Assembly (NCBI GenBank): GCA_030345135.1
Contig: CP128386.1
Location: 2,753,677 to 2,817,676, forward strand
From: Chitinophagaceae bacterium DXS
GTDB lineage: Bacteria; Bacteroidota; Bacteroidia; Chitinophagales; Chitinophagaceae
Direction of reading: 5' to 3'
DNA: 64,000 bases
The translations under genes and the position numbers were made by a program. The notes beneath the pieces are model-generated. The model did not search any database. It was not told where the DNA came from and worked only from the letters and a program-made list of their open reading frames with translations. Shown one piece after another: positions 20,183 through 62,785 of this stretch. Each line of letters opens with the position of its first letter. Position 1 is the first letter of the stretch.

Positions 20183-20509
20183 TTACAAAATGAACAATGG
20201 GAAAGTTTTATAAAAAGCCGTTAAATTGGGTGGAACCAGGGAGACAGCGCGACACTGAGAAACGCTGAGACTTTTTGCCGCTAAGACGCTAAGGCGCAAA
20301 GAAGTGCTAAGGGTTTTTGAAACACAGAGACACTGACGGCACGGATAACCATAAGGGAATTTTGAACCACGGAGCGCCAACGCGCCGAAATGTGCACAAA
20401 GCTAAACGCCGCGCCGCTGCCTCGTTGCGTGCGTGGCGTAAAACTCTCTTCTATAATACATGAAGCCAACAAGGGCTTAAACGTATAACGTAAAACTTAT
20501 AACGTACAA
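20183..20509. repeat. Intergenic repeat: CACGGAG/CGCAAAG words and a GTATAACGTAAAACT heptad array
   Basis: Non-coding. 20220-20420 carries degenerate copies of the words GGAACCAGGGAGAC, CTAAGACGCTAAGGCGCAAAG and GAACCACGGAGCG, the same family as at 23290 and 34920. 20477-20510 is a ~7-nt period array (CGTATAA, CGTAAAA, CTTATAA, CGTACAA) whose last bases run into the stop codon of the GH2 gene. Confidence 0.65.
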
Positions 20510-23257
20510 CTAGAAAGCGAACCACAGCTCTCCTTCCACTGGCTTATTATTTAACAACATATTCTTCTGACTTTCAGGGCCCATGGATGTGGCTTGTTGA
20601 AATTTAGTTCCAATTGCAGGAATTGCGCTCATGAATCCAAGCGATGCATTTGGGAATGCCGGAGTAACATTATCATTTGTCATTGTCTTTGGCTTTTGCG
20701 GAACCAGCATCTGAAGAAAAACGTTGTCGTTATTGGTGTAAATGGTAAAATCAGATTCTTTGGTCTGGATGGTTGTCCAGTACACATTGGCATGGTATCC
20801 TTTGAACTCTGGATAGTTCCAGTTCTCGCCGGTAACTGTGTTGTTGTATGCTTTTTGCCACACACCGAACTGCATTCCCTGCAGGCGGTTCTTCCAAACG
20901 CGGTATGGTCCGCGGCCGAGCCATTTCATCCCCGTGATTTTTTCTTCAGGATAATTAAAAGTAATTCCCATGAAATCCCGTTCGCCTTTTGGCGCGTATT
21001 TGTATGAAAGCTTCGGCAGTTTGCCCGGCGCGAAAGTCCACGACATCTTGCTCCAGCCATTGCCGGAATAAGATATTTCCAGTATAACAGTGTCCTGATT
21101 TTTCGTTAGATCAAATGATTGTTTCACCTGATCCGGGCCTGCTGATGGTCCGCCCGATAATGAAATCTCTTTGCCTGAAGCATTGGTTACTTTTTGTAAA
21201 TACCCGGAAGTTGTGTCGAAGGTATAAGTAATGTTGTTGGATACGATCTGCAATAACTTATCGTGATTTTTTATTTCGGTAGCAGTGTTTAATGTATTGG
21301 TTACCAGTTTTTTATTTACCTGTATTGCAGTTTGTAGTGGCCAACTCCAGGTGCTAATTTCTTTGCCGTCTTTGGCGATGGCTGTAACGTATAGCGCCTG
21401 GGATTTTGGCAGACTTGAAAGCACGGGTAATGGTATGGAGCGCTTCTCTCCTGGCAAAATGGATGGCATGTTAATGAAACCAGAATCAACCCAATTGGTC
21501 ATTGATTCATTCCCCTTTGACGAAGAAAAGTTCGCCAGCTTCCATTTCAATTTACAGTCACTTAAGTTGGTGAAATGGTATCTGTTTTCAACAAGCAGAT
21601 TTCCGTCGAAGTCAACAGACAATGTTTTCGTAGAAATATAAACCGGACTCCAGATCTGTTTGATGGCATAATAACTTGCTTCTTTTTCCCTGTACGGACC
21701 AATAATACCGTCAGGTGCGTGATTTCCGTGGCAATCTATCATGCCATTCATATCTGTTCTGACAACACCCTCATCATGAAATGCCCATAAGAAGCCTCCT
21801 GCATTTGCATGATACGTGCGCATGCGTTCCCAAAAGTCTTCCAGACCTGCTGCATGGCCGCCATCATAAAGTCCATGCATATATTCTGTCGGAAAGAACA
21901 CATCGTTGCCATAAAGGCTTTCATTAACGATGTACTTGTAGTCCGGGTAATGTTTGGTATCTGTGCCGTTGAACTTCTCCCACGGATGAATCACCAGTCG
22001 CTTTTGCGGATCATACAACGCATAGTCATTATCCAAAGCGCGGTTCCAGCCACCTTCATTACCATTATCCCAAATAACAATGCTTGGATGATTAACATCG
22101 CGGGTCACCAACTCCTTCACCAATCTTTTGCCTGAGACTGTATCGTATGCTGCCTGCCAGCCGGTTAATTCATCGAGTACCATCAGTCCCAATGAGTCGC
22201 ATAGATCAAGAAATTGTCTGTCTGGTGGGTAATGACTCATTCGGACCGCGTTCATATTCATGTCCTTTATCAGGCCTATATCCATTAAGTGAATGTCGCG
22301 GCTTAAGGTTCTTCCGCTGGCTGGCCACTCGCTATGTCTGTCAACACCTTTGAAGACGACTTTTGTTCCATTGAGATAAAAGCCATCATGTGGCTTTAAA
22401 ACTGCAGTTCTAAATCCAAAACGCTGGTTTACAGAGTGTATGATTGAGTTGTTTCTTATAAGATTAAAAGTGATCTGGTAGAGATTGGGTTGTTCGGGAT
22501 TCCATAAAAGAATATGATCAAATGATTGCGTCAATATAGATTCATTGCCTGCCAACGATACAGTAAAAGATTTTCCAACAACTGTTCCGTTAAGCGTTTG
22601 TACCTTGGCTTGTATAACGTCGCCCGGTTTTGTATTGTTATGAAAGATTGTAGCTTCAAGATTTCCGTCAGCTGTTGCATTAATTGCGGTACGCTCTATA
22701 TGTGTTTGAGGTAGAGCTTCGAGATAGACTGGTCTGTAAATTCCGCCAAAAGCCCAGAAGTCTCCTCCCCTTTCAGCTTTTTCTATACTGGCATTTGATG
22801 AAGCTTTACTAACTGTAACATCTAATTTATTTGTTGCGCCAAATTTTACAAGACTGGTTATGTCATAACTGAATTCATAAAATCCGCCCTGGTGAACTGG
22901 TCCGCATGACTTGCCATTGACTTTCACTTCCACATCTGTCATGGCTCCTTCAAAGATGATCTTTACTATTTTATTCTGCCATGATGCCGGAACCGTAAAG
23001 CTGGTTTTGTATAATCCTTGTTCATTGATCTTGTCTTTATCATGGCCATAAGTGTATTGACCAAAACCCTGCAGCTCCCAGTTGGATGGCACGGCAATCT
23101 TGGTCCATTTACCACTGTTGTTTCCTTTAGTGCAGAAAAAACCCCATTGAACGGTGTGGTCTTTATCTGTACCGGAGATGTATTGCCTGACGGTTTGTTG
23201 TGCGTGAAGTGATTGAAAAATGATGAATAGTAAAAAGAGGAATAAGACTTTTTTCAT
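20510..23257 (-). CDS. Glycoside hydrolase family 2 (beta-galactosidase-like), secreted
   Basis: 915 residues from ATG 23257, chosen because it begins a signal peptide (MKKVLFLFLLFIIFQSLHAQ). Residues ~25-220 form the jelly-roll sugar-binding domain (KIAVPSNWELQGFGQYTYG, RGGDFWAFGGIYRPVYLE). Then come an Ig-like domain with FGFRTAVLKPHDGFYLNG and the TIM barrel with KGVDRHSEWPASGRTLS, MSHYPP, the acid/base WDNGNEGG and a FLWAFHDEGV strand. The C-terminal part has a further beta domain with YPEEKITGMKWLGRGPYRVW. Probably removes beta-linked galactose or a related side-chain sugar at the cell surface or in the periplasm. Last gene of the susC-led PUL. Confidence 0.9.
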   Translation of the reverse strand: MKKVLFLFLLFIIFQSLHAQQTVRQYISGTDKDHTVQWGFFCTKGNNSGKWTKIAVPSNWELQGFGQYTYGHDKDKINEQGLYKTSFTVPASWQNKIVKIIFEGAMTDVEVKVNGKSCGPVHQGGFYEFSYDITSLVKFGATNKLDVTVSKASSNASIEKAERGGDFWAFGGIYRPVYLEALPQTHIERTAINATADGNLEATIFHNNTKPGDVIQAKVQTLNGTVVGKSFTVSLAGNESILTQSFDHILLWNPEQPNLYQITFNLIRNNSIIHSVNQRFGFRTAVLKPHDGFYLNGTKVVFKGVDRHSEWPASGRTLSRDIHLMDIGLIKDMNMNAVRMSHYPPDRQFLDLCDSLGLMVLDELTGWQAAYDTVSGKRLVKELVTRDVNHPSIVIWDNGNEGGWNRALDNDYALYDPQKRLVIHPWEKFNGTDTKHYPDYKYIVNESLYGNDVFFPTEYMHGLYDGGHAAGLEDFWERMRTYHANAGGFLWAFHDEGVVRTDMNGMIDCHGNHAPDGIIGPYREKEASYYAIKQIWSPVYISTKTLSVDFDGNLLVENRYHFTNLSDCKLKWKLANFSSSKGNESMTNWVDSGFINMPSILPGEKRSIPLPVLSSLPKSQALYVTAIAKDGKEISTWSWPLQTAIQVNKKLVTNTLNTATEIKNHDKLLQIVSNNITYTFDTTSGYLQKVTNASGKEISLSGGPSAGPDQVKQSFDLTKNQDTVILEISYSGNGWSKMSWTFAPGKLPKLSYKYAPKGERDFMGITFNYPEEKITGMKWLGRGPYRVWKNRLQGMQFGVWQKAYNNTVTGENWNYPEFKGYHANVYWTTIQTKESDFTIYTNNDNVFLQMLVPQKPKTMTNDNVTPAFPNASLGFMSAIPAIGTKFQQATSMGPESQKNMLLNNKPVEGELWFAF

Positions 23258-23289
23258 ATGCAGTTGCGTTGAGAGCATGCAATATCGTG

Positions 23290-23920
23290 ATTTTTTTGAA
23301 CCACGGAGGCACCGCGAATGAACGAAACACGGAGATCTTTGCCACAAAGACGCAAAGACGAGAAGGGGGCACAAAGTTTATGAACCACGGAGGCACGGCG
23401 AATGAACGAAACACGGAGATCTTTGCCACAAAGACGCAAAGACGAGAAGGGGCACAAAGTCTATGAACCACGGCGGCACAGAAGGCACAGGCGAAACACA
23501 GCAATTTTTTGCCACTAAGACTGCAAGTGGCAAAGATACTTTAGACCAAAAAGTGATTTAAAAAACTTAGTGCCTCTTTGTGTTCCTCGTGTCTTCGTGT
23601 TTCAGAAAAGTCTGTCGTGGTTCTTCGTGTCTTCCGTGCCTCCGTGGTTTTATTTTCTTCGTGCCTCTTTGCGTCCTTCGTGTCTTCGTGTTTCAGAAAA
23701 GTCCGTCGTGGTTCTCCGTGCCTTCTGTGCCTCCGTGGTTTTATTTCTTCGTGCCGCTTTGCGTCCTTCATGTCTTGGTGTTTCAGACAAGTCCGTCGTG
23801 GTTCTTCGTGTCTTCCGTGCCTCCGTGGTATTGTTTCTTCGTGCCGCTTTGCGTCCTTCGTGTCTTCGTGTTTCAAAAAAAATCCGTCGTGTTTCTCCCT
23901 GTCGCCCGTGCCTCCGTGGT
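23290..23920. repeat. Inverted arrays of ~88-90 bp intergenic repeats
   Basis: Left arm, 23293-23520: two near-identical ~88-bp units plus a partial third, each with GAACCACGGAGGCAC, GAAACACGGAGATC and CACAAAGACGCAAAGACG. Right arm, 23565-23920: about four ~90-bp units of the same word family in the opposite orientation (CTTTGCGTCCTTCGTGTC, GTGCCTCCGTGGTTTTA). The two arms can pair into a large hairpin. Open frames of up to 279 codons here arise from the repeats and are rejected. The right arm abuts the stop codon of the GH9 gene. Confidence 0.8.
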
Positions 23921-23921
23921 T

Positions 23922-25709
23922 TTACCAGCCGGCTTGAGGCGCGAGTGCTTCGAAGGCATTGGCGATGTATACAAGCGGTGCGTTCCAGTTGATGGCGATT
24001 TCGTTGCTGGCATATGCGGGATCAATATCAACATACGCTGTCTCCGGTTCTGTGAATTCATATTTGCTGCCGTCCTGGCGACCGGGATTGGGACCGCCTG
24101 CCAAAAGGCCGGGAATAGGAGCTGCAATATTATCCGCAACAGAAGGACGATGATGAGGATGCATGGTGCTTTTACAACCTACGCCTGTTACGAAGCTATA
24201 GCCAGTAGCATTCCGGCCAAGAATATAATCAAGATTGGAAAGTGCGTTGGTAAGATATTTTTTATCGCGTGTTTGAAGCCAGGCATTGATCAAAATAATA
24301 GACTGATTAGCTGCATTGGAATTACTACCCCAGTTAAAGTCCTTTGGCGATCTGCCCATTACCGTTTTAAAGGCGTTAGCCTGCACGGGCTCCAGATAGC
24401 CATCAGCAAATGCAATTAATTGTTTACTCACAAATGCAATATCATTTGAATAAGCAGCCAGATTATTTTTTCTGCGGAGCAAAGTATAGTACCCAAGCAT
24501 CTGCACGTTGCTCCATGAAGGAAGTGTCATTGTAGTATTGATGTGTTGCTGCACTACAGCATAATATTGCTTGTCTTTTGTCGTAGCCAATAATTCGCTG
24601 GCTGCCCAAAACCATTCGTCGTCAAAATGCTTGTCGCCATAAGCACCTGTCGTTATTTTGGGAGAGAATGTTTTATTGATCTCTTCCTGGTTATATGCAA
24701 CAGCCGGATTAGCCAATGCCCATTGCCAAGCGGATTGAGAAGCTTTCAGACAACTGTCACTTAATCCGGGCAGTTGCTTGTCGAACTTCTTAAAGATGCG
24801 GCAAGCCTGGGCCGTTACGGCTGCAAAATCCAGTGTGGCGGCTGTTCCTTTTTGCACCACATATCTTGACAGTTTCGTAATACCCGGCATCACCATGCCG
24901 TCAAATGCAGCATTGGTACATTTATGATACACGCCGCCATCATTAGGATCCTGCATGGTGAGCATCCATCTTAAATTATAACATACTTCGTTTAATATGT
25001 CGGGTACTTTATCATTGCTTTCCGGAATATTGGTTTCCAGTGTATCGAAGTATGTGGTAAAATCCTCGTACGCAGATAACAAGGTTCCCATTGTAATACC
25101 TGAATTCACAATGTATTTGTTATAGTCGCCGGCATCATACCAGCCATACGGACTGGAGATGACAAAACCTTCCGGTCTTTTTGGTGTTGCTGCTGAAGCG
25201 TGGATCAACACTGCGGTATCCGGATGTCCCGCAGGCCTTGCCCATTTGCCTGCATATTTCTCTTCCAGGGGCATCGAAACCCGCTGGTAGTAAAAGCCTT
25301 TTAATGATGAAACCGCTACAGCATGTTGTGCATGTTGTTTGATCTCAAAGCTGCATGAGTTGGGATAACCGGGAATAGCTACAACATATTTCCCATTTTT
25401 TTGAAAGGATGAAAAATCTGCATAACGCGTCTTCAATGACGAATTCTTTGATTGCATTTCATTTTCAAGCTTTCCTTTGAAAACAGTATCTTTTTTGGAT
25501 TCGGAGAGAATAAAAAAATCATCACTGTTAACAGGTGCAATAATGATTGCGGCTTTGGGACCTTTGGTATAATATCCTACGTGGTTAATGCGAATCTTAT
25601 TTATCTCAGATTGAGCTTTTGCGGTGACGTACATTGGCAACGAGAATAAAAGCAAAATCAATTTCGATAAATGTCTTTTTCTGTTTAATGGTTCGTGATT
25701 CGCAATCAT
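23922..25709 (-). CDS. Glycoside hydrolase family 9 endo-beta-glucanase-type enzyme, secreted
   Basis: 595 residues. Hydrophobic signal near residues 15-33 (LSKLILLLFSLPMYVTAKAQ), then an N-terminal Ig-like CelD-type domain (RINHVGYYTKGPKAAIII) and an (alpha/alpha)6 barrel. GH9 hallmarks are YGWYDAGDYNKY (catalytic-base Asp), the MHPHHRPS box and FTEPETAYVD with the proton-donor Glu followed by YASNEIAINWNAPL. Cleaves beta-1,4-glucan backbones such as xyloglucan, mixed-linkage glucan or glucomannan. Third from last in the PUL, between the GH-A hydrolase and GH2. Confidence 0.92.
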   Translation of the reverse strand: MIANHEPLNRKRHLSKLILLLFSLPMYVTAKAQSEINKIRINHVGYYTKGPKAAIIIAPVNSDDFFILSESKKDTVFKGKLENEMQSKNSSLKTRYADFSSFQKNGKYVVAIPGYPNSCSFEIKQHAQHAVAVSSLKGFYYQRVSMPLEEKYAGKWARPAGHPDTAVLIHASAATPKRPEGFVISSPYGWYDAGDYNKYIVNSGITMGTLLSAYEDFTTYFDTLETNIPESNDKVPDILNEVCYNLRWMLTMQDPNDGGVYHKCTNAAFDGMVMPGITKLSRYVVQKGTAATLDFAAVTAQACRIFKKFDKQLPGLSDSCLKASQSAWQWALANPAVAYNQEEINKTFSPKITTGAYGDKHFDDEWFWAASELLATTKDKQYYAVVQQHINTTMTLPSWSNVQMLGYYTLLRRKNNLAAYSNDIAFVSKQLIAFADGYLEPVQANAFKTVMGRSPKDFNWGSNSNAANQSIILINAWLQTRDKKYLTNALSNLDYILGRNATGYSFVTGVGCKSTMHPHHRPSVADNIAAPIPGLLAGGPNPGRQDGSKYEFTEPETAYVDIDPAYASNEIAINWNAPLVYIANAFEALAPQAGW

Positions 25710-26348
25710 CGTATGTAAATTGTAATTTATAGATTATCATTTTTTCGAACGTTCTTTTGGCTTGATCCAAAAAACTCCCACCTGAATGACGACAGTCGGG
25801 CAGGAAAAACTTAAGGCAAACATCCGCCCGGATGAATCCGTTCGGACGGGCGAATGCCTCCGTCCCCACAGTACTGTGGGGACCGCCAACGTCTCTCCAA
25901 ACTGCAGCTTGCACTGCCTTGTACAGGCGGGCTCTACATTTTTATTTCAATCAGCAATAAACTATTAACTCCTTCTATCGCCGGTACCGCGATGTAATTT
26001 TTCGTCTTGAAAATCTTTAACAGCGTGGCTTTACTTGCCAGTCATAAAAACCTGCAACGTCTCATTTAAAACGTACAACGTATCACATAATACTTATAAC
26101 TCCCTTTCAGAAACCGTCACCGGCATAAAGCCGGCAACGGTGCTGTTATTCCCAATATAAGACACTCGAGTTTTACGTTGTAAGTTATACGTTGTACGTT
26201 TATGAAAATACCTGTAAACATCGTGATCATAGTCTTGCATTTGAGTTCGAAAAGACAAGCTACAACATCCTTTCTGTCATAAAACTTACAACTAAGAACT
26301 CACCCTGGTTTTAGGCTTTAAGCTTTAGGCTTTGGGCTTTCTTACAAC
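25710..26348. repeat. PUL intergenic region with palindromes and inverted heptad arrays
   Basis: Non-coding. It holds: a CACCTGAATGACGACAGTCGGGCAGG-type element at 25778-25803 (given here as parts CACCTGAATGACG and ACAGTCGGGCAGG), related copies at 36281 and 43398; a perfect 22-bp palindrome GTCCCCACAGT/ACTGTGGGGAC at 25862-25883; inverted arms of a CGTACAACGTAT-type heptad array at 26069-26103 and 26170-26202; between them a hairpin ACCGT-CCGGC/GCCGG-ACGGT at 26113-26141; and a GGCTTTAAGCTTTAGG heptad array at 26310-26340 ending at the stop codon of the next gene. Confidence 0.65.
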
Positions 26349-28097: not shown

Positions 28098-28112
28098 AGA
28101 TTGAGTTTAAGC

Positions 28113-28345
28113 CTTCAGGTGTCAGGTATCAGGTACCAGTTTTAGCGTCAGCTTTCAGAAAAAAGGTAACAGGTATCGGGTATCAGTTGCAGGTTTAAGC
28201 GCGTTTGTTTTTAAGCCTCTGCCTGCATGATCAATTTCGATGAATTAGTTTGCCAGTTATCACCGGATAAGATACAGCTACCCTCCCAGATAGGCTGTAC
28301 CCCGATCGCTGATACCTGATAACCTGTTACCTGATTCCTGATAGC
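28113..28345. repeat. Inverted CAGGTAT heptad arrays between SGBP and hydrolase genes
   Basis: Left arm 28114-28193 (CAGGTGTCAGGTATCAGGT and GGTAACAGGTATCGGGTATC); right arm 28308-28344 in opposite orientation (GATACCTGATAACCTGTTAC). About 115 bp lie between them. The right arm ends 9 bp before the stop codon of the glycan-binding protein gene. Confidence 0.65.
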
Positions 28346-28352
28346 ATACAGC

Positions 28353-34919: not shown

Positions 34920-35547
34920 AAACCATGGGGACAGGGCTGCACGGGAGAAACAAGGGGATTTTTTGGGAGACGAAACCACGGAGGCAGGGCGACACGGAGA
35001 AACACGGTGTTTTTTTTGCCGCGAAGATAGGAAGGCTCAAAGGGGTACAAAGGTTTAAACCACGGCGACAGGGCGGTACGGGGAAACACGGCGATTTGTT
35101 GCCACGAAGACAGGAAGGCGCAAAGGGGCACAAAGTTTTTTACCACGGCACCAAGAACGCCAAGGGGCACAAAGATTTTTAAGAAGGCGCTAAAGCGCTG
35201 AAAAGGGCGCAAATATTTAGGCTAACATGTTCACTGTTAGGGTATGCGTAAGTAGGGAAAATATTATTAGGTCTTAGCGTCGCTGCCTCTTTGCGAGCTT
35301 TGCGTGAAACAATTTGTGCGGTAAGATCGTTGCGTCTCTGCTTCTTTGCGAGCTCTGCGTGAAACAATTTGTGCGGGGAAAGTCGTTGCGTCTCTGCTCC
35401 TTTGCGAGCTCTGCGTGAAACAATTTGTGCGGGGAAGCCGCTGCGCCGCTGCTCCTTAGCGAGCGCCGCGAGAAACAAAAAGCCCAAAACTCAGCGAGCT
35501 TTTGGAACAGCTTCGCCGGGTTTTAGGCTTTGAGCTTTAGGCTTTAA
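34920..35547. repeat. Intergenic repeats: forward CACGGAGGCAGGG arms and reversed TTTGCGAGCTCTGCGTGAAAC array
   Basis: 34920-35215 holds three or four degenerate ~85-bp units with words such as ACCACGGAGGCAGGGCGAC, GAAACACGG, CGAAGACAGGAAGGCGCAAAG. 35278-35480 holds four units of 50-56 bp in the opposite sense, each with CGTTGCGTCTCTGC, CTTTGCGAGCTCTGCGTG and AAACAATTTGTGCGGG. 35518-35550 is a GGCTTTGAGCTTTAGG heptad array that overlaps the SGNH-gene stop codon. Open frames here are repeat artefacts. Confidence 0.75.
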
Positions 35548-35549
35548 GC

Positions 35550-36227
35550 TTATCTAATGTTTTTAATCTGTTCCCACATGGCTTTAGACACCATTTCGTT
35601 GCCAAGATCGTTGAGATGAACGCCATCAACAGTTAAAACGCCCTTGTCGGTATTTTGGCTATTGTTTGATTTTTCGTAATCGGTGAACAATTTTCTCAGG
35701 TCAACAAGTGGCAGATTCAGATCTTTTGCCATATTACGAATAATGTTACTGTATTTGTTCAGGTCACCGTCCTGTTCGTTGCTGTAATCATTTTTCTCGC
35801 CAATGGTAGCGGGTGTACAAACAATTACCTTGGCGTTAGCAGCCTGCAATTTTTTGATGATGGCGCGGTAGAATTTTTCGAATTTGTCGGGATCAGTTCC
35901 TGTTCCGAAAGATCTTTTGTGCCATACATCATTCACACCTACATAGATGATAACGATGTCCGGGGATTTGCTCAGCACATCATCTTCCATTCTTAAATAA
36001 AGGTCATATACTTTATTGCCGCCAATTCCGGCGCCGATCAGTTCGTAATCATTAATACCTTGCTGTTTCAATGTCTTATCTAAAACGGTAATATAACCAT
36101 TCGGAGAAACGCCAGCCTGGGTGATGGAGTCACCAAAGAAAACAACCTTCTTTTTTTTCTGTGGAGCAAATGAGGCCGAGACAAGCAAAATCACAAACAG
36201 GGCAAGCCAAATCAGTTTACTATTCAT
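35550..36227 (-). CDS. Secreted SGNH/GDSL hydrolase (carbohydrate esterase-like)
   Basis: 225 residues with a signal peptide (MNSKLIWLALFVILLVSASF). All four SGNH blocks are visible: FFGDSITQAG (Ser), a GIGGNK block (Gly), VGVNDVWHK (Asn), and DGVHLNDLG (Asp/His). Members deacetylate xylan, pectin or glucomannan, or act on other acyl esters. Placed just upstream of GH125; may act on acetylated plant polysaccharide taken up by the nearby PUL, but substrate is inference. Confidence 0.88.
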   Translation of the reverse strand: MNSKLIWLALFVILLVSASFAPQKKKKVVFFGDSITQAGVSPNGYITVLDKTLKQQGINDYELIGAGIGGNKVYDLYLRMEDDVLSKSPDIVIIYVGVNDVWHKRSFGTGTDPDKFEKFYRAIIKKLQAANAKVIVCTPATIGEKNDYSNEQDGDLNKYSNIIRNMAKDLNLPLVDLRKLFTDYEKSNNSQNTDKGVLTVDGVHLNDLGNEMVSKAMWEQIKNIR

Positions 36228-36253: not shown

Positions 36254-36420
36254 GTAATTAAAAGTCAAAAGTAAAAAGTCCCCGCCTGACCGTCGGGCGG
36301 GAAAATTCAAAACTTCCGGTTCGGTCTTGCGTACTTTCTTTTACAGTTGAATGCTGCTAAAGTATAGTGAAGCTCTCCGATTTGAATTTTTTGAATTTTG
36401 ACTTTTTACTTTTGAATTAT
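36254..36420. repeat. Inverted AAAAGTC heptad arrays around a CGCCTGACCGTCGGGCGG hairpin
   Basis: Left arm 36254-36280 (AAAAGTCAAAAGTAAAAAGT). Hairpin CCCGCCTGA/TCGGGCGGG core at 36281-36302. Right arm 36381-36418 in opposite sense (TTTGAATTTTGACTTTTTAC), ending 4 bp from the stop codon of the GH125 gene. Confidence 0.65.
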
Positions 36421-37873: not shown

Positions 37874-37910
37874 CCCTTATTTATTTAGAGTTAAAAGACA
37901 ACAGATAAAT

Positions 37911-38830
37911 CTCTGATGTCTGATTTAAAGATCTCTGATTTCTTATAGCTCATCTTACGTTTGCAATTCAAACAAGCAAAGTATTCATCTTACAATTTCC
38001 TGCCCGGCACCCTTCCTCACATTTGCATATTTACACATTTGCAAATTCGCACATTCTTATCTCTGATGTCTGATTTAAAGATCTCTGATTTCTTATAGCT
38101 CATCTTACGTTTGTAATTCAAACAAGCAAAGTATTCATCTTACAATTTCCTGCCCGGCGTCCTTCCTCACATTTGCATATTTACACATTTGCAAATTCGC
38201 ACATTCTTATCTCTGATGTCTGATGTAAAGATCTCTGATTTCTTTTGGCTCAAGCTTGCTTTGCAATTCAAACAAGCAAAGTATTCATCTTACAATTTCC
38301 TGCCCGGCATTCTTCCTCACATTTGCATATTTACACATTTGCAAATTCGCACATTCTTATCTCTGATGTCTGATTTAAAGATCTCTGATTTCTTATAGCT
38401 CATCTTACGTTTGTAATTCAAACAAGCAAAGTATTCATCTTACAATTTCCTGCCCGGTATCCTTCCTCACATTTGCATATTTACACATTTGCAAATTCCC
38501 ACATTCTTATCTCTGATGTCTGATGTAAAGATCTCTGATTTCTTTTGGCTCAAGCTTGCTTTGTAATTCAAACAAGCAAAGTATTCATCTTAGAATTTCC
38601 TGCCAGGCATCTTTCCTCACATTTGCATATTTACACATTTGCAAATTCGCACATTCATTATCAATTCTCCACTATCAATTCTCCATTAATATTTGAAGAT
38701 CTCTGATTTCTTATAGCTCATCTTACGTTTGTAATTCAAACAGGCAAAGTATTCATCTTACAATTTCCTGCCCGGCATTCTTACTCACATTTGCATATTT
38801 ACACATTTGCAAATTCGTACATTCATTGTC
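37911..38830. repeat. Tandem satellite: five copies of a 150-bp unit plus a partial sixth
   Basis: The word CTCTGATGTCTGAT starts at 37911, 38061, 38211, 38361 and 38511, an exact 150-bp period. A further partial copy runs ~38695-38820 after an insertion of CAATTCTCCACTATCAATTC-type sequence. Each unit contains TCTGATT heptads, a CTTACGTTTGTAATTC segment, CAATTTCCTGCCCGGC and an ATTTGCATATTTACAC octad array. Copies alternate slightly (third and fifth carry TTTTGGCTCAAGCTTGC). Non-coding. Confidence 0.92.
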
Positions 38831-38845: not shown

Positions 38846-39238
38846 CTAGTCTCTCCCTTTCAGTTCAATCTTCGGGAACAAAGTCATTAGAAACATCACA
38901 AATGACAATATCAGTAAAAGATAGATACCGGCTCTTTTTTCGGGACAATCGCCAAGATAACACGAGGTCACGAGGATGTAGTTGCGTATTGACCAGGCAA
39001 AATTGAAAATAGCGATAAACATGTTCGTGCGTTTCGACCAGATGCGTGGTACCAGGAAGAATATGATTGCAACAATACTCATGACAATATTTACAAGACC
39101 CGGCTTTCCGAAGGATGTGCCCGTAGCCTTTAGCCCCGTAATTGTTATTTGCTGGCTGGCAACATAGCTCCAGGGCATAAAACAGTTCGCTATAATGGCC
39201 AATGCAACAACAACACCTATTATCTGGGAATATTTCAT
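38846..39238 (-). CDS. Small four-helix membrane protein of unknown function
   Basis: 130 residues with four hydrophobic segments: IIGVVVALAIIANCFMPW, LVNIVMSIVAIIFFLVP, MFIAIFNFAWSIRNYILV and GIYLLLILSFVMFLMTLF. Two Cys in TSCYLGDCPEK. No named family recognised, but such small integral membrane proteins are common in Bacteroidota. Its stop codon is formed at the edge of a CAATTCTCCATTAATTC array. Confidence 0.65.
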   Translation of the reverse strand: MKYSQIIGVVVALAIIANCFMPWSYVASQQITITGLKATGTSFGKPGLVNIVMSIVAIIFFLVPRIWSKRTNMFIAIFNFAWSIRNYILVTSCYLGDCPEKRAGIYLLLILSFVMFLMTLFPKIELKGRD

Positions 39239-40381: not shown

Positions 40382-40677
40382 TTTCCGGATTGCTGATTTT
40401 TTGAATTAAGGGATACCAATATCTAACATTCAGAAAAATAGTACGATCACATCAGGAACCGGGCGCTCTCTCCTGTCGTCATTTTCTGGTAAACACGGAT
40501 CGTCATGTGAACTATGAAAATTGGTTTGCCTCAAGCAAAAGGAAAAGGCAATACACTTAAGCTGAATTCCCTAAGGGAAAAACTGTCTCTGTCGTGAAAT
40601 CTGTCATTGGCACGACAGGGAACATTTCCCACAGTCGGGATGTAGGACACATTTTCGCCCACCTGATACCTCACCCC
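40382..40677. repeat. Dispersed intergenic repeat, paralogous to 58850-59125
   Basis: 40382-40410 is a GCTGATT heptad array. 40480-40620 contains TTTCTGGTAAACACGGATCG, CGTCATGTGAACTATG, TACACTTAAGCTGAATTCCC, AGGGAAAAACTGTC and CTGTCATTGGCACGA, all with close counterparts in the same order at 58850-59125. 40655-40690 is a CTCACCC heptad array that encodes the last residues and stop codon of the next gene on the minus strand. Confidence 0.65.
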
Positions 40678-41340
40678 TCACCCCTTACCCGTCCCCAACT
40701 CAATAATATCCTTCCCATCTATAACTTGCTTCGGATATGGTTCAAGAGCAACATGGATCATGGCAAGACCAAGCTCCTGTAGTGTACAAAATCCTTTAGG
40801 ATATAAGGCCCGGCCAATGGGAAACATCCAATTGATGTATTTGTAAAATGATTTCGCATTTTTCAGTCCGGGAGTCGGTTTAATAAAACCCGGTCTTACG
40901 GCATAGACTTTTTTAAAGGGAAGCTTCATGAGATCATTTTCAGTTTTCCCTTTTACTCTTGCCCATCTGCTCCTACCCCTTTCAGAACTATCGGTGCCAG
41001 CTCCGGAAATATATTCAAAAACCATTTGCGGACTTTGCCTGCTCAATGTTTCCGCTACATGCATGGTAAGCGTATATGTCATCTTATAATACTCATCCGC
41101 AGATATGCCGACGGAAGAAATACCCAGGCAGAACAAACATGCATCATAGCCTTTCAGTTGATCTTCAATAGCAGAAAGATCATAAAAGTTCCCATGAATA
41201 ATTTCTCTAAGCTTCGGATGACTTATTCCCAAAGGCTTTCTGCTTATCGACAATACCTCATCAACAGCAGGATGCAGCAAACATTCATGCATCACGCCCT
41301 CTCCCACCATCCCCGTCGTTCCTGTAACTATAACTTTCAT
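40678..41340 (-). CDS. NAD(P)-binding epimerase/dehydratase-like oxidoreductase
   Basis: 220 residues with an N-terminal Rossmann loop TGTTGMVGEGVMHECL and LFCLGISSVGISADEYYKMT, followed by FEYISGAGTDSSE and KGKTENDL, where the Tyr-x-x-x-Lys pair of the extended SDR family is only partly kept. C-terminal YAVRPGFIKPTPG. Similar to NAD-dependent epimerase/HTATIP2-like oxidoreductases. Substrate unknown. Probably separate from the AraC-SDR pair. Confidence 0.82.
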   Translation of the reverse strand: MKVIVTGTTGMVGEGVMHECLLHPAVDEVLSISRKPLGISHPKLREIIHGNFYDLSAIEDQLKGYDACLFCLGISSVGISADEYYKMTYTLTMHVAETLSRQSPQMVFEYISGAGTDSSERGRSRWARVKGKTENDLMKLPFKKVYAVRPGFIKPTPGLKNAKSFYKYINWMFPIGRALYPKGFCTLQELGLAMIHVALEPYPKQVIDGKDIIELGTGKG

Positions 41341-41394
41341 CTTTTTCTTTTCTTATTAGTTATCTTATTTCTCGTCCACTCTTCTCTTCTTTCC

Positions 41395-41475
41395 ATCTTA
41401 CCCGTCTTACATGTCTTACGATCTTACGGTCTTACGATCTTACAATCTTACTGTCTTACAATCCTACTGTCTTAC
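41395..41475. repeat. TCTTACG octad array at the end of the AraC gene
   Basis: About ten degenerate copies of an 8-nt unit (CTTACGAT, CTTACGGT, CTTACAAT, CTTACTGT). It runs into the AraC coding region: the final residues VRQ and the stop codon are encoded by the array. The same word family, in the same sense relative to the gene, follows the CDS at 62600. Confidence 0.75.
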
Positions 41476-43268: not shown

Positions 43269-43444
43269 TTTTTTAATGGAGAGTTGAAAATTGACAATTG
43301 AAAATGATGGCCACTGAAACACTGAAGCACAGATTTATTCGTCTCGCGTCCCGGGCAAAAAGTGACTCTTTCGGCGCTTTCCACCATTATCAATTTTCCC
43401 CGCCTGAATGACGTCAGTCGGGCAGGAATTTTCAATTTTCAATT
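43269..43444. repeat. Inverted AATTGAA heptad arrays with a CGCCTGAATGACGTCAG element
   Basis: Left arm 43272-43310 (GTTGAAAATTGACAATTG); right arm 43384-43444 in opposite sense (TTTTCAATTTTCAATTA). A CCCGCCTGAATGACG..CAGTCGGGCAGG element is embedded at 43398-43425. The right arm supplies the stop-codon context of the GH92 gene. The core 43311-43380 shows no gene. Confidence 0.65.
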
Positions 43445-45771: not shown

Positions 45772-45812
45772 TTAGTTAATGGATAGTTGAAAATTGAAAA
45801 TTGATAATGAAA
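45772..45812. repeat. AATTGAA heptad array upstream of the GH92 start
   Basis: GTTGAAAATTGAAAATTGAT, same word family as the arrays at 43272 and 43384. Lies in the gap between the GH92 gene and the hybrid sensor gene. A second, looser array (TTTGAAATTTGACTTTTTAT at 45921-45940) abuts the stop codon of the sensor gene. Confidence 0.5.
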
Positions 45813-45937
45813 ACGCAAAACACGATGTTTCCTACTGTAGTCTCGGGTGGAATAAAAGACCTCATGTCTGCGCTAAAATTTAACAGTGACAAATTCCTGC
45901 AAGCCCTTTTGCCTTTTTACCTTTGAAATTTGACTTT

Positions 45938-49025: not shown

Positions 49026-50351
49026 ATGAATAGAAAAGTTGTTTTGTGGAGCATTATTGTTGCGCTTGGCGGGTTCCTTTTTGGGTTTGATACCGCGGTT
49101 ATATCTGGTGCTGAACAATCTATACAGAAGTATTGGAACCTTACTCCCTTTGAACATGGCCTTACTGTATCTATCGCTTTAATCGGTACGATCATAGGAT
49201 CGCTTACAGGTAGTTATCCTTCTGAAAAACTCGGACGACATGCCACTTTATTGATTATTGCTGCTACCTACCTGGTCGCTTCGGTTGGAACGGCCGTTGC
49301 TACCAATTGGTACATATTTCTTGCTTTCCGTTTTATGGGCGGCGTTGGCGTTGGTGCTTCGTCTGTTACCGCACCGGTTTATATATCTGAAATTTCTCCG
49401 GCAAAAGCGCGCGGACGCCTGGTTGCCCTTTTCCAGTTTAATATAGTGCTGGGCATTCTCATATCCTATCTGTCAAATTATCTTATCGGTCAGGGAAGCG
49501 AAACGTCCTGGCGCATGATGCTCGGCGTTCAGTTTATTCCTTCTTTGTTGTTCCTGGTGTTACTTAAATATGTGCCGGAAAGTCCGCGCTGGTTAATTGT
49601 AAAAAGAGGAAAGATAAAAGAGGCCGAAGCTGTACTGAAGATCGTGAATCCCGAAGGATACCGGGACGACCTGAATGCGATTATTGCTGACGCTGCGCAG
49701 ACGCCAGGCGATGAAGCGGAAGTGCTCTTCTCACGGAAAAACCGCCTTCCTGTATTTATGGCAATCGCGTTCGCTGTGTTTAACCAGGTATCCGGCATAA
49801 ATGCGATTATCTATTACGCCCCGCGCATTTTTGAAATGACTGGATTGGGAAGACAATCATCGCTGTTATCCAGCGTGGGTATAGGCGCCGTGAATTTCAC
49901 ATTTACATTGCTGGCATTAAACTTCATAGACAAATTCGGCAGAAGAACACTCATGCTGATTGGTTCGATCGGGCTCATACTTACACTTACACTAGTTTCC
50001 CGTGCCTTCTACCTGAACGATTTTGGTGGATTTACAGTAACCATTTTGTTGCTGGTGTACATCGCATTTTTTGCTTTTTCCCAGGGTGCAGTGATCTGGG
50101 TATTTATCTCTGAAATATTCCCGAACCAGGTGCGTGCCAAAGGACAAACCCTTGGCAGCCTTACACATTGGGTGATGGCTGCCGTTATTGCATTCGCATT
50201 CCCCATGCTTACTGAAAGCCTGGGTGGCGGTCACACATTTCTTTTCTTCTCCATTATGATGGTGCTGCAGTTGCTGTTTGTCTGGAAGGTGATGCCGGAG
50301 ACAAAGGGCAAATCATTGGAGCAGCTGGAACATGTACTGGTGATGCATTAA
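49026..50351 (+). CDS. Sugar porter-family MFS transporter (likely fructose importer)
   Basis: 441 residues from ATG 49026 (MNRKVVLWSIIVALGG); a TTG 12 bp upstream is less likely. Twelve hydrophobic segments. Sugar-porter marks are GFLFGFDTAVISGA, SEKLGRHATL, PVYISEISPAKARGRLV, YVPESPRWL, NQVSGINAIIYYAP, DKFGRRTLM and VMPETKGKSLEQLE. Its place between a BT1754-like sensor and a PfkB kinase mirrors the fructose permease of the B. thetaiotaomicron levan locus. The stop codon flows into an AAAGCCT heptad array. Confidence 0.94.
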   Translation: MNRKVVLWSIIVALGGFLFGFDTAVISGAEQSIQKYWNLTPFEHGLTVSIALIGTIIGSLTGSYPSEKLGRHATLLIIAATYLVASVGTAVATNWYIFLAFRFMGGVGVGASSVTAPVYISEISPAKARGRLVALFQFNIVLGILISYLSNYLIGQGSETSWRMMLGVQFIPSLLFLVLLKYVPESPRWLIVKRGKIKEAEAVLKIVNPEGYRDDLNAIIADAAQTPGDEAEVLFSRKNRLPVFMAIAFAVFNQVSGINAIIYYAPRIFEMTGLGRQSSLLSSVGIGAVNFTFTLLALNFIDKFGRRTLMLIGSIGLILTLTLVSRAFYLNDFGGFTVTILLLVYIAFFAFSQGAVIWVFISEIFPNQVRAKGQTLGSLTHWVMAAVIAFAFPMLTESLGGGHTFLFFSIMMVLQLLFVWKVMPETKGKSLEQLEHVLVMH

Positions 50352-50395
50352 AGCTGAAAGCCTAAAGCCTAAAGCTCAAAGCTTAAAACTTGTGA
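50352..50395 (+). repeat. AAAGCCT heptad array directly after the transporter stop codon
   Basis: Five or six 7-nt units (AAAGCTG, AAAGCCT, AAAGCCT, AAAGCTC, AAAGCTT) starting with the last A of the TAA stop. Same word and same sense as arrays after the genes ending at 26349, 35550 and 56211. Confidence 0.75.
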
Positions 50396-54492: not shown

Positions 54493-56211
54493 ATGAAACG
54501 AACAATAATACTGATCACGATGGCTTGTGCCTTATCGTTATCCTGCAAAAAAGTACTTGATGAAACGCCGCAGGGTGTTATATCAGACGACGATTTAAAT
54601 ACACCTGAGAACGTTGACAAGCTTGTTATAGCGGCCTACTCCGCCCTTGGCAACGATCACTATACCGCACCTTTCTCCAGCATGTGGCCCTATGGCAGCA
54701 TCCGCGGAGGCGATACTTATAAGGGCGGGGATGGTCCTGGTGACATCAGCGAATATCACCTCTTTGAAACGTTCTCTTTAAATCGCGTGGACAATGGTTT
54801 GATAGACCTTGTTTGGTATCGCCTGTACGTAAGTATCGGCCGCGCAAATGATGCGCTTAGAAGAATGAATAATTTAAGCGATGCTGATTATCCCCAAAAG
54901 GCAACAAGACAGGCTGAGCTAAGATTCTTAAGGGGGCATTTTTATTTCCTTGCAAAGATCCTCTTCAAATATGTTCCATATATTGATGAGAACACACCGC
55001 AAGCGAATTATGATACTGTCTCAAACAGAACCTATTCAAATGAAGCATTGTGGACCAAAGTTGCAGACGATTTTCGTGCAGCAGTAAATGGACTGCCTGA
55101 TACCCAGACTGAGATTGGCCGTGCAAATAAAAATTCTGCTAAGGCATACCTGGCCAAAGTATTGCTGTATCAAGCTTACCAGCAGGATGAGAACAACAAC
55201 GTAACTTCTATTAATGCCGCGATGCTGCAGGAAGTTAATCAGCTATGCGACGACGTAATAAACTCAGGCAAGTACGCGCTGAACACAGATTATGCAGATA
55301 ACTTTCTTGCTCAGACTGATAACAGTAAAGAATCTGTTTTCGCCATACAGTATTCAAAAGGCGATGGTACACCCAAAGGCCGGTTGGATTATGGTCATGC
55401 GCTTAACTATCCGATGAACCAGGAATATGGCTGCTGCGGTTTTCATGTGCCAAGTCATGATCTGATCAATGCGTTCAAGACCGATAAGAATGGACTGCCG
55501 ATGTTTGATACTTATAACGCAAGCGACGTTGCAGCTTCAGGCGATTATAAAACCGGCACTTTTGATCCGCGTTTAGATCATACTGTTGCCATTCCCGGAC
55601 ATCCTTTCAAATACATAGCGGATTTCCTGTTTGCAAAATCCTGGGCACGTGCTCCCGAGGTTTACGGTGCATTTGCCAGTCTGAAAGAAGCAGTCGGTCC
55701 GGAAGATGCGTCTTTCCAAAAGATCCCACCATTTATGTCAAGCTCAAAGAACTGGGATATCATCCGCTTTGATGATGTACTCCTGTTTAAAGCTGAAGCG
55801 TTGATCCAGTTGGGCAGACAAAATGAAGCGTTGCCGTTGATCAACCAGGTACGTACACGTGCTGCAGCCAGCACGGCTCTGCTAAAGCAAGCAGACGGCT
55901 CTTCTACTTCCAACTATGGAATGACCGTGTATACGCCGGGGGTAAACTGCACGTGGACAAAAGACTTTGCCTTTAAGGCATTGCAATGGGAAAGAAGGCT
56001 TGAGTTCGCAACTGAAGGTTATCACTTCTTTGACCTTGTACGCTGGGGTATCGCAGCAGAATACATCAACAAATATTTTGCAATAGAAAAAACAAGATCA
56101 TCACATCTGTCTGATGCATCGTTTAAAAAGAACAGGGATGAATATTTTCCTATTCCTTTAAACCAGATCAATTATAGCAGAGGATTGTATCAACAGAATA
56201 CGGGATGGTAG
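54493..56211 (+). CDS. SusD/RagB family outer-membrane lipoprotein (fructan PUL)
   Basis: 572 residues; lipoprotein signal MKRTIILITMACALSLSCKK (lipid Cys 18). SusD-type features are DETPQGVISDDDLNTPENVD, ELRFLRGHFYFLAKILF, a Cys-Cys pair in EYGCCGFHVP, DVLLFKAEALIQLGRQNEAL, and the C-terminal WERRLEFATEGYHFFDLVRW with YFPIPLNQINYS. Surface capture partner of the preceding SusC. Stop codon directly followed by an AAAGCTC/AAAGCCT array. Confidence 0.95.
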   Translation: MKRTIILITMACALSLSCKKVLDETPQGVISDDDLNTPENVDKLVIAAYSALGNDHYTAPFSSMWPYGSIRGGDTYKGGDGPGDISEYHLFETFSLNRVDNGLIDLVWYRLYVSIGRANDALRRMNNLSDADYPQKATRQAELRFLRGHFYFLAKILFKYVPYIDENTPQANYDTVSNRTYSNEALWTKVADDFRAAVNGLPDTQTEIGRANKNSAKAYLAKVLLYQAYQQDENNNVTSINAAMLQEVNQLCDDVINSGKYALNTDYADNFLAQTDNSKESVFAIQYSKGDGTPKGRLDYGHALNYPMNQEYGCCGFHVPSHDLINAFKTDKNGLPMFDTYNASDVAASGDYKTGTFDPRLDHTVAIPGHPFKYIADFLFAKSWARAPEVYGAFASLKEAVGPEDASFQKIPPFMSSSKNWDIIRFDDVLLFKAEALIQLGRQNEALPLINQVRTRAAASTALLKQADGSSTSNYGMTVYTPGVNCTWTKDFAFKALQWERRLEFATEGYHFFDLVRWGIAAEYINKYFAIEKTRSSHLSDASFKKNRDEYFPIPLNQINYSRGLYQQNTGW

Positions 56212-56367
56212 TTTTAAGCTTAAAGCTCAAAGCCTAAAGCTCAAAGCTTGTTGGTGCGCGAGACTTGTGTATACTATTATTGATAGAAAAGTCTTGGGAA
56301 GTCCATTAATAAAGTTTTTTCTTTGAACGTAGTTTTACGCTTTATGCTTTTGGCTTTAAGCTTTCCA
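56209..56367. repeat. Inverted AAAGCCT heptad arrays between susD and GH32
   Basis: Left arm 56212-56252 begins at the susD stop codon (TTAAAGCTCAAAGCCTAAAG); right arm 56329-56365 in the opposite sense (CTTTTGGCTTTAAGCTTTC). About 75 bp lie between them. In an operon this could fold into a hairpin that lowers read-through to the GH32 gene. Confidence 0.7.
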
Positions 56368-56399
56368 TTTAAGCTCATTAATCAACATAGTCAAAAAAT

Positions 56400-58112: not shown

Positions 58113-58129
58113 GGCGATCCGCGGTCACT

Positions 58130-58180
58130 GCAAAAAAAAATTGTCCTACACTTTTAAAGTGTAGGACAATTTTTTTTGCA
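58130..58180. terminator. Bidirectional terminator between GH32 and LprI-like genes
   Basis: Very strong hairpin: ATTGTCCTACACTTT pairs with AAAGTGTAGGACAAT and is flanked by 8-9 A on the left and 8 T on the right. Serves both convergent genes. Confidence 0.93.
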
Positions 58181-58202
58181 TCTGGGATTGCGATTCGGGA
58201 TG

Positions 58203-58234
58203 TTGTAAAGGCGCGATGCATCGCGCCTCTACAA
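58203..58234. repeat. REP-like palindrome
   Basis: AGGCGCGATGCATCGCGCCT is a perfect 20-bp palindrome, extended by TTGTA/TACAA on the outside with one mismatched pair. Sits just downstream of the LprI-like gene. Confidence 0.65.
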
Positions 58235-58241
58235 TTTCGTA

Positions 58242-59800: not shown

Positions 59801-59940
59801 TTTATAAACTTTATGAGGCAATTGAATTGTCCTTGTTGTAGTATTTTAATTAGTATTCGTCGATAAAACTACCTAAAAAAATGTATATTGGAATTAAGCC
59901 CGCAGAGGCACTCACCTACTTTATATCTAAAGCTTATCGA

Positions 59941-60780: not shown

Positions 60781-60789
60781 CATCGGCGA

Positions 60790-61962: not shown

Positions 61963-62276
61963 GGGAAGTCCTGGTTGTAATGCCGGGGAACACAAATATC
62001 CGCGGATAACAAGGTACAATTGCCAATGTTGATAAAAAAGATGGTGTATTCAACATTATCATCAAAATGTGAACTTCCGGACCCAATATCAACAACCGTA
62101 AGACATTGACCGCGTCGTGTTCGCGGTTGTTTTTATGTTCCGGAAGAGAAAGCAAGAAAATTATTCAAAACTAATTTTGCGTCGCAATAAAGCAAAGAAT
62201 TGAAAATGCAAGACATGTTATGGTGACGCACAACAGCATAATCAAACCGGCACCTTGTTAACTTAAGACCTCAATT

Positions 62277-62600
62277 ATGCATTCTAACCTAAAAACGATT
62301 TACTCTTCTGATATGTGTTCTTCCCGTATTATAGCAGGCGCATTTACGCCATTTTTGATTGCTCCGGCGTCTGCCGGCAGCATGGATAAACTCGTGCTGA
62401 AATACCACGAAAAAGTAAACAGCATACATCTGAAAATATTCACCAGGTGGGGTTCTGTTATTTACGAAACAGACAACTACGACAACTCCTGGGACGGTGA
62501 CAATGTCAGTGCGGGCACTTATTACTACGAAGCAGCCGTCTCCTCTCCTGCTTTGGCAGATGAAAGGCCACACAGAGGATGGATTGTGGTGGTTAAATGA
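62277..62600 (+). pseudogene. Fragment with gliding motility-type (CHU_C) T9SS sorting domain
   Basis: The last ~70 residues match the type B sorting domain: VNSIHLKIFTRWGSVIYETD, YDNSWDGDNV and SAGTYYYEAAV. Upstream of this the 35 residues carry no signal peptide and look degenerate. In intact genes this domain ends long adhesins or surface proteins. Directly followed by a GTAAGATA octad array. Confidence 0.65.
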
Positions 62601-62603
62601 AGA

Positions 62604-62680
62604 CGTGTAAGATAGTAAGACCGTAAGACAGTAAGATAGTAAGATAGTAAGATAGTAAGACAGTAAGATAGCACGAGAGT
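62604..62680 (+). repeat. GTAAGATA octad array after the CHU_C fragment
   Basis: Eight or more 8-nt units (GTAAGATA, GTAAGACC, GTAAGACA, GTAAGATA) beginning within 10 bp of the stop codon. Same word and same sense as the array ending the AraC gene at 41464. Confidence 0.8.
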
Positions 62681-62749
62681 AATAAAGCAAAGCCAGAACA
62701 TTATTAAGAAATGAAAAACGGCAAGACACCCTTACTCCTTCGCTTCGAT

Positions 62750-62785
62750 AAACGTAAAAACGTAAAACGTATAACTTACAACTCA
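62750..62785 (-). repeat. CGTAAAACGTATAAC heptad array at the ABC permease stop codon
   Basis: Units CGTAAAAA, CGTAAAA, CGTATAA, CTTACAA run to the stop codon of the minus-strand permease. Same word family as the arrays at 20477 and 26069/26170. Confidence 0.65.

Follow-up and report, generated by a model that had tools for sequence, protein, structure and literature searches.

The window analysed here, a 64,000-bp stretch of contig CP128386.1 from Chitinophagaceae bacterium DXS, carries at many of its gene ends short degenerate tandem arrays with a unit of seven or eight nucleotides (heptads and octads). Its genes, which include SusD and TonB-receptor families recognized by Pfam, indicate Bacteroidota, and one of them has 62% protein identity to Flavihumibacter sp. 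ZG627. Glycan-utilization genes lie between 20510 and 56211: members of GH2, GH92 and GH125, a surface glycan-binding protein, a hybrid sensor kinase with a periplasmic sugar-binding domain, a sugar transporter, a TonB receptor and SusD. An initial annotation had placed repeat arrays at the stop codons of sixteen genes, and most of that list stands. Thirteen of the ends have a lag-7 or lag-8 array that touches the stop or lies no more than about 13 bp from it (20510, 26349, 28353, 35550, 36422, 40678, 41464, 43443, 45938, 50351, 56211, 62600 and 62783, of which 45938 is marginal with a score of 9.0), and 23922 has an array of longer (90-bp) units, as had been described. Two ends drop out: at 40381, Tandem Repeats Finder (TRF) gives 2.4 copies of GATGGCT, below the array threshold, and at 38846 the octads are internal to a 150-bp tandem repeat and the open reading frame (ORF) is absent from our own gene calls. 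In the list that follows, a single array is called an arm, and a pair of inverted arms together with the core that they enclose is called a cassette.

20480-20510, minus strand: heptad arm TTRTACG, overlapping the stop of a GH2-family gene that ends at 20510 (TRF, array scan, Pfam).
23566-23924, no strand assigned: tandem array with a 90-bp unit and words of the CACGGAGG/CTTCGTG type that extends to the stop at 23922 (TRF).
26170-26200, plus strand: heptad arm TTRTACG, sharing a gap with the arm at 26307 (array scan).
26307-26340, minus strand: heptad arm AAAGCCT, 8 bp off the stop at 26349 (TRF, array scan).
28115-28342, no strand assigned: gap with AGGTATC-type arms, those at 28115-28139 and 28161-28184 on the plus strand; an inverted array at 28309-28342, beside the stop at 28353, fits the seed word weakly.
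35519-35551, minus strand: arm of AAAGCCT heptads that overlaps the stop at 35550 (TRF, array scan).
36260-36413, no strand assigned: AAAAGTC-armed cassette with arms at 36260-36279 (plus) and 36389-36413 (minus), adjoining the stop of a GH125 gene at 36422 (Pfam).
37909-38824, no strand assigned: about five copies of a 150-bp tandem repeat whose unit holds an octad array of the AATGTGCG family (TRF, array scan).
40661-40690, minus strand: arm of GGGGTGA/GGTATCA heptads that overlaps the stop at 40678 (TRF, array scan).
41414-41475, minus strand: octad arm GTAAGANN, overlapping the stop of an AraC-family gene at 41464 (TRF, array scan, Pfam).
43284-43444, no strand assigned: ATTGAAA-armed cassette with arms at 43284-43305 (plus) and 43427-43444 (minus); a palindrome resembling a repetitive extragenic palindrome (REP) adjoins the right arm at about 43398-43426.
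45787-45924, no strand assigned: weak pair of an ATTGAAA arm (45787-45808) and, near the stop at 45938, a lag-8 array of marginal score (45903-45924).
50350-50391, plus strand: heptad arm AAAGCCT, right at the stop (50351) of a sugar transporter gene (array scan, Pfam).
56210-56364, no strand assigned: AAAGCCT-armed cassette with arms at 56210-56248 (plus) and 56334-56364 (minus), at the stop (56211) of a SusD-family gene (Pfam).
62607-62786, no strand assigned: mixed pair between convergent genes. An octad arm of the GTAAGANN type (62607-62679) follows the stop at 62600, and an inverted arm of TTRTACG heptads (62757-62786) overlaps that at 62783 (TRF, array scan).

The window's own genome, G000, is a single contig of 7.29 Mb; G009, G024 and G025 represent a related genus. 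Our main sample of G000, the window together with 20 stretches of 20 kb spaced evenly along the chromosome, amounts to 464 kb with 364 genes, called by our own ORF and hexamer script with no annotation used, and divides into 78.5 kb of intergenic and 380 kb of coding DNA. With dinucleotide shuffles as the null, the intergenic DNA yielded 118 lag-7 arrays (about 0.8 in the shuffles) and 37 lag-8 arrays (about 0.6), and the coding DNA five and none, respectively. Lags 9 to 13 gave just 0 to 6 arrays, the remaining large excesses being at lags 14, 16, 21 and 24. A second scan, run at a slightly lower threshold (a score of 9.0) with the lags merged, found 212 arrays, 191 of them intergenic or approximately one per 2.4 kb, from which a chromosome total of about 3,000 is extrapolated. 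The sequence AAAGCCTAAAGC alone occurs 321 times in the chromosome, compared with once for its reversed control.

The proposal that seven- to eight-nucleotide periodicity would be enriched after stop codons throughout the genome is borne out by these counts and by the lag-7 autocorrelation, whose excess over shuffles in the 20 stretches is 0.050 in the 100 bp after stops (n = 183) and 0.032 before starts (n = 217). In the window alone the corresponding values are 0.033 (n = 30) and 0.025 (n = 32), and in four relatives, on small samples of 12 to 40 each, they range from -0.012 to 0.006. The assignment of the arrays to gene ends holds in part. Stops are favoured, 76 of 252 having an array within 60 bp, and starts have them too (38 of 282); within 20 bp of a start, 17 of 19 arrays point inward, as would be expected of a partner arm. 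In gaps between tandem genes, an arm occurs no more than 15 bp from the stop in 41 of 97 cases in G009, 41 of 97 in G024 and 43 of 165 in G000, and equally close to the start in 10, 10 and 10. Gaps between convergent genes have an arm within 15 bp of both stops in 9 of 20, 6 of 19 and 5 of 43 cases in the same genomes, and of one stop alone in 5, 2 and 16.

Eleven G000 seed words were used to assign arrays to word families. They accommodate 189 of 220 arrays, of which 173 are in gaps, and the orientation counts therefore leave out the 31 arrays that fit no seed word and the 16 of 189 that lie outside gaps. Measured from the nearer gap edge, the words point inward rather than outward by 125:24 in the 20 stretches and by 20:4 in the window. 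Within 20 bp of an edge in the 20 stretches the ratio is 17:2 at starts and 50:1 at stops, in agreement with the constant sense orientation after stops that had been reported. The six words whose orientation was fixed by the window point inward in 57 of 68 cases (28 of 29 near stops), and the five that were signed with the sample in view (F5, F6, F8, F9 and F10) in 68 of 81. Split-half prediction of orientation with all words was right 117 times and wrong 24 times (47:2 near stops). Because the words point inward from both edges, opposite gap edges carry inverted arrays. Furthermore, of the 30 gaps that have inward arms at either edge, 19 are bordered by outermost arms of a single word family, where 3.8 would be expected and the maximum in 10,000 permutations was 12. 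An array of the kind first described is thus usually one of two matching inverted arms, that is, half of the structure. Arms built of 7-mers have a median span of 31 bp in each of three genomes; for 8-mers the medians are 39, 34 and 35 bp. Four to five units make up an arm. As the initial annotation had stated, the arrays reach into the stop codon and a common structure is built from many words. An inner motif, GTG[CT][AG]GC, stands beside the arms in 8 of 165, 9 of 118 and 5 of 106 cases, against 0.8, 0.5 and 0.4 in shuffles; it was rejected as a defining part of the cassette, given its presence in approximately 5-8% of arms.

In the related genus, whole cassettes occur as dispersed copies. 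When a 20-kb stretch of G009 was compared with its own genome, five cassettes were matched elsewhere with 71-93% identity over about 85-200 bp, the matches on both strands being partly due to the palindromic form. Among the 20 copies examined, which are those at the top of the match list, the core is closer to the query than all 500 shuffles in 17. The copies sit at other genes, 7 of the 20 between two convergent mechanical ORFs. At least those G009 cassettes are therefore units of arm, core and arm with dispersed copies.

Comparison of G009 with its sister species G024 permits replacement to be followed at individual loci. The two share about 90% DNA identity and, in a 200-kb block selected by synteny and not randomly, 165 orthologs with a median protein identity of 97%; eight of the eleven seed words used for these species were picked after inspection. 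Among 132 gaps longer than 30 bp with conserved neighbours, 55 have arrays in both species, 5 in G009 only, 6 in G024 only and 66 in neither. By eye, arm, core and arm have all been swapped between alignable flanks in gaps 44, 119, 127, 43 and 139, and the borders of the swapped cassettes to the conserved flanks appear sharp. Beside the swapped cassette in gap 119 is a highly conserved stretch that resembles a small structured RNA gene, perhaps that of the signal recognition particle RNA. Across 24 gaps with paired arms in both species, the families were kept in 16, and both arms had changed in 4, the right arm alone in 3 and the left alone in 1, a concordance of change in both arms (Fisher p = 0.014) that includes some minor changes, since AATTAAG, AATTAGG and AATTAAT are one to two letters apart. 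Unit number differs between orthologous arms. In gaps with unchanged words, core similarity is above shuffles (z > 2.5) in 9 of 15 testable cases, and in the 4 changed gaps the core z values are -1.3, 1.2, 1.7 and 2.6. In gap 43 the cores of the two species match better when one is inverted (z 4.8) than directly (z 1.2). Also by eye, gap 103 has the heptad pair of one species within an apparent remnant of the other's octad arm, and gaps 12, 28, 174 and 181 have a heptad or octad cassette in one species and an inverted repeat of another type in the other.

In four other genera of the family, orthologous gene ends have almost no arrays. Two stretches, L003 and L011, were picked for the ortholog comparisons as array-rich, which inflates the G000-only counts given here: in 73 pairs with those genera, an array is in G000 only in 35, in the relative only in 1, in both in 0 and in neither in 37, and in 25 pairs with G009 the figures are 7, 4, 5 and 9. 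At the five positions with arrays in both G000 and G009, none has the same word by eye. Conservation of position between genera was considered and rejected, as G009 has an array in 5 of 12 places where G000 has one and in 4 of 13 where it has none, close to the base rate. The C-termini of orthologous proteins mostly match to within a few residues, and the arrays therefore usually follow a conserved stop. In another genus, the ortholog of the gene ending at 50351 has AATTAAT in place of AAAGCCT, and that of the gene ending at 56211 has AATTAAG arms; sequence similar to the ATTGAAA cassette at 43284-43444 is present in other genomes, and a 12.9-kb Flavihumibacter locus contains no array at the threshold used. 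A 26-nt ATTGAAA-type arm (at most one mismatch) is present in 15 of 294 genomes of the family, in high copy in two genera (49 copies in G000; 324 in G009, 146 in G024 and 104 in G025) and at 1-5 copies in 11 further genomes, and in 4 of 395 genomes sampled across the phylum, G000 included. In a viral collection, the 26-mer was found in 7 contigs, several of which have further arrays (seen as array lists only).

Other repeats share the same spaces. The long-unit array at 23566-23924 is a different repeat class in a like position; arrays with units of 55-90 bp were found by TRF at 23293-23479, 23566-23924, 34973-35149 and 35277-35478, near gene ends, with words of the CACGGAGG/ACGAAGAC/TTTGCG type, and form a class of their own. 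The repeat at 37909-38824 is a cassette-like unit with octad arrays, amplified in tandem. REP-like palindromes of the type CCCGCCTGA...TCGGGCAGG adjoin heptad arms at about 43398-43426 and 36280-36301 of the window, and gap 30 of G024 holds one that resembles a clean insertion, about 28 bp long, confined to a single member of the sister pair. L022 has dispersed long inverted repeats of about 230 and 100 bp (5396-5630 and 18455-18558) that start at or near stop codons and have many copies in three congeneric genomes. Further dispersed repeats lie in array-bearing gaps of L003, at 8148-8328 and 5350-5445; both are copied elsewhere in the same genome, the former also in two relatives.

Some features of the array-bearing gaps bear on RNA. 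In 20 such gaps, folding is more stable than in shuffles (mean z -4.3, range -14 to -0.1), and array-bearing stops less often have a hairpin resembling an intrinsic terminator (pooled odds ratio 0.48, p = 0.0035), which fits cassettes substituting for terminators. A search of the window with Rfam 15 at the gathering score gave tRNA as the sole match.

We propose that the arrays are the terminal arms of short, non-autonomous inverted-repeat cassettes, akin to miniature inverted-repeat transposable elements (MITEs) or REPs, which fill 3' slots and are perhaps transcribed as hairpins; we put the odds of this reading at roughly even. A cassette would consist of an arm of four to five degenerate 7- or 8-nt units, a core of mostly 15-200 bp and a reverse-complement arm, making about 75-260 bp where it fills a gap. 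Its place would be a 3' slot bounded by a stop codon and whatever functional sequence comes next, where, as a transcribed inverted repeat, it may be tolerated or even favoured for providing a 3'-end hairpin that ends transcription or shields the end of the mRNA. Copying or exchange could be the work of some enzyme acting in trans, or could result from similar arms recombining with each other. Words would differ by gene through the presence of at least eleven families per genome, which drift and replace one another slot by slot. The inward orientation, the same-word pairing, the arm size and the stop-side position are direct observations on which this proposal builds, as are the dispersed copies with shared cores and the replacement of whole cassettes, seen in G009 and G024 only. 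Most likely, then, cassette families turn over fast in the space after genes.

Several results weigh against this proposal, and some of them speak for other accounts. The unit that moves could be the arm itself, about 25-35 bp long and inserted singly, facing inward, at gap edges, with the core a mere leftover between two insertions. A search of G000 with the array-rich L003 stretch matched its paired cassettes over the arms alone, and in G000 the spreading unit may be single arms; the longer L003 matches were octad arrays, long-unit repeats and other dispersed repeats within gaps. From the window, an octad gap at about 41336-41475 has a 140-bp match elsewhere at 77%, and the segment at about 43378-43444, which includes the palindrome, has a 67-bp match at 94%. 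Cores are mostly unrelated and arms are not locus-specific: when 84 cores were compared with one another, 2.4% of the pairs, orthologs included, exceeded the 99% null level, and 3 of the 20 G009 copies share the arms without the core. Six of the gaps with unchanged words have a core z below 2, so that cores can change while words stay, and one changed gap retains a core with z 2.6. Single-arm gaps are also numerous, as the 5, 2 and 16 convergent gaps with an arm at one stop only illustrate. Even so, an independently moving arm remains unlikely, in view of the core common to 17 of 20 G009 copies, the cores that travel with their arms in several gaps of the sister species and the 19 of 30 gaps whose outer arms are of one word. 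In-place construction of 7-mers, along the lines that the initial annotation had raised, is less plausible again: slippage by the replication machinery in weakly constrained 3' gaps, with words and arms as neutral by-products, would account for an excess confined mostly to lags 7 and 8 and their multiples, for orthologous arms that vary in unit number and for a poorly conserved unit order. By itself it cannot explain the few recurrent word families, the inverted partner of the same word or the G009 cores copied together with the arms, and the inward orientation, the narrow arm length around 31 bp and arms that change jointly also speak against it. The annotation's idea of a common process behind different words thus survives as one kind of structure, its words being not local inventions but at least eleven recurrent families, and its conclusion that no one element is spreading is right in that there is no single one, although many families of spreading units are indicated by the shared-core copies in G009 and the replacements between sister species.

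A role in the 3' UTR or in RNA, also raised by the initial annotation, is conceivable. A selected 3'-end RNA element, in which the arms form the stem of a transcription terminator, an insulator or an mRNA-protecting hairpin and word changes compensate one another, would suit the placement of arrays after stops and between convergent genes, the mean fold z of -4.3, the concordant changes of arms and the scarcity of intrinsic terminators at array-bearing stops. That last relation, however, is significant in just one of three genomes (odds ratios: G009 0.78, p = 0.68; G024 0.23, p = 0.002; G000 0.52, p = 0.14), and the space taken up by the arrays may confound it. An arm complements its partner at the same locus no better than it does family arms at other loci (20.7 versus 20.4 in 24 pairs, p = 0.41), and left and right arm lengths are uncorrelated (Spearman 0.11, n = 116), results that speak against strong selection for a perfect stem and leave compensatory stem evolution within loci unsupported. 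Cores, moreover, change too in the changed gaps, unlike in-place compensation, and relatives do without arrays at orthologous ends, which makes selection on an RNA element improbable as the main cause, if somewhat less so than slippage. If the arms were bound, at a pitch of 7-8 nt, by a protein that recognizes DNA or RNA, either a post-transcriptional regulator or a nucleoid protein, this would explain four to five evenly spaced units per arm; such a role has been proposed for the TAACTGA repeats of Beggiatoaceae. With words that vary by family, gene and sister species, several families per genome and no protein candidate, we regard this as very improbable.

The proposed cassettes face difficulties of their own. 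Exact 24-mers shared among arms number 47, 51 and 45 in three genomes, against means of 37.9, 53.5 and 38.4 for unit-shuffled controls, which gives weak support to a fixed unit order inherited from a master copy, a possibility that was dropped; the mirrored unit order of left and right arms goes slightly beyond such controls (101 pairs, p = 1.5e-5), with a small effect. As to a mover, none of the seven Y1_Tnp loci of G000 has a seed-word array in its flanks of about 1.5 kb, and linkage to a Y1 or REP-associated tyrosine transposase (RAYT) was accordingly rejected; one such locus has an unrelated octad more than 1 kb off, and some have palindromes of their own. In L025 and L030, IS200/RAYT-like genes are flanked by palindromic repeats that, by eye, are unrelated to the heptads. 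Inward arms of one family facing a longer gap were seen as 2 pairs in the 464 kb of G000 and two 200-kb blocks, a fraction of the genomes concerned, and neither holds an autonomous element: GH32 and RibD_C genes lie within one pair, and within the other there is no ORF longer than 80 aa.

A wider and tentative, indeed doubtful, extension is that 3' gaps in at least three phyla (Bacteroidota, and those of Xanthomonas and Anabaena according to the literature) are slots for exchangeable inverted-repeat cassettes with ends of four to five units at 7-8-nt pitch. Pitch and end size, not sequence, would then characterize this class of mobile element, which would be moved by a geometry-reading enzyme or an exchange reaction tolerant of word drift. 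The cassette reading itself makes a testable picture of scattered reports of heptamers, one in which arrays are the ends of units competing for the space after genes. This would explain gene-specific words, differing words at orthologous ends and arrays that touch stops, and pairs of sister genomes would allow exchange to be caught and the enzyme to be sought. At the observed density, the arrays represent a major share of the non-coding DNA of G000.

Intergenic heptamers are familiar from cyanobacteria as short tandemly repeated repetitive sequences and small dispersed repeats. Like MITEs, the cassettes are short, noncoding and bounded by terminal inverted repeats, and full-length dispersed copies occur in the related genus, the one 20-kb stretch searched in G000 having given arm-only matches. 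A Bacteroidota MITE with tandem repeats in intergenic position, BrickBuilt of Porphyromonas gingivalis, has a 23-nt repeat and lies 49-591 nt from genes (Klein et al. 2015, PMC4596501); its repeat is internal, whereas here the 7-8-nt repeats form the inverted termini. REPs, bacterial interspersed mosaic elements (BIMEs) and REPINs are likewise short dispersed inverted repeats in gene-end positions, found mainly downstream of genes, between convergent or unidirectional ones, with termini that can provide the stop codon (Di Nocera et al. 2013, PMC3733652); our elements differ in that the arms are arrays and no Y1 transposase is linked to them. Small variable segments, or dimorphic loci, of Escherichia coli and other species share with the cassettes the replacement between conserved flanks, and heptad-armed inverted repeats do not belong to their description in the part cited (Touzain et al. 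2010, PMC2884548).

Two heptad systems come closer. Direct repeats of TAACTGA, for which horizontal spread is suspected, occur in Beggiatoaceae, some Cyanobacteria and Bacteroidetes and stand, in the main genome, mostly just upstream of start codons (MacGregor 2015, PMC4679880). They resemble the present arrays as intergenic heptads found in several phyla, and the related genus studied here carries AATAACTG octads; they differ in their start-side position, and inverted cassettes are absent from the portion of that description considered here. The closest published system is that of the GGGAATC and GGGGA(T/C)T heptads of Xanthomonas campestris, X. axonopodis and Anabaena, which are intergenic, lie 0-50 bp from the stop on the coding strand and from the start on the non-coding strand, and overlap stops; in the two Xanthomonas genomes the number of units is mostly four, convergent inverted pairs number 70 and 75, and the prominent repeats are at different genes (Rehm et al. 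2015, PMC4692102). The strand and distance rule is the same (here 50:1 at stops and 17:2 at starts), as are the number of about four units and the inverted pairs, and the G000 arrays and these heptads are close enough to be one kind of thing. Differences lie in the single G-rich, quadruplex-capable word of those genomes, against at least eleven mostly A-rich families plus octads here (the seed words ATTGAAA, AAAAGTC and AAAGCCT have no G-runs), and in the copying of cores with arms and the swapping of cassettes, both seen in the related genus, which go beyond that description as far as it is used here. The literature found, mostly other than subscription papers, describes neither coexistence of many words, nor cores copied with their arms, nor swapping within a slot; what is new here is the multitude of words within one genome and the exchange of cassettes.

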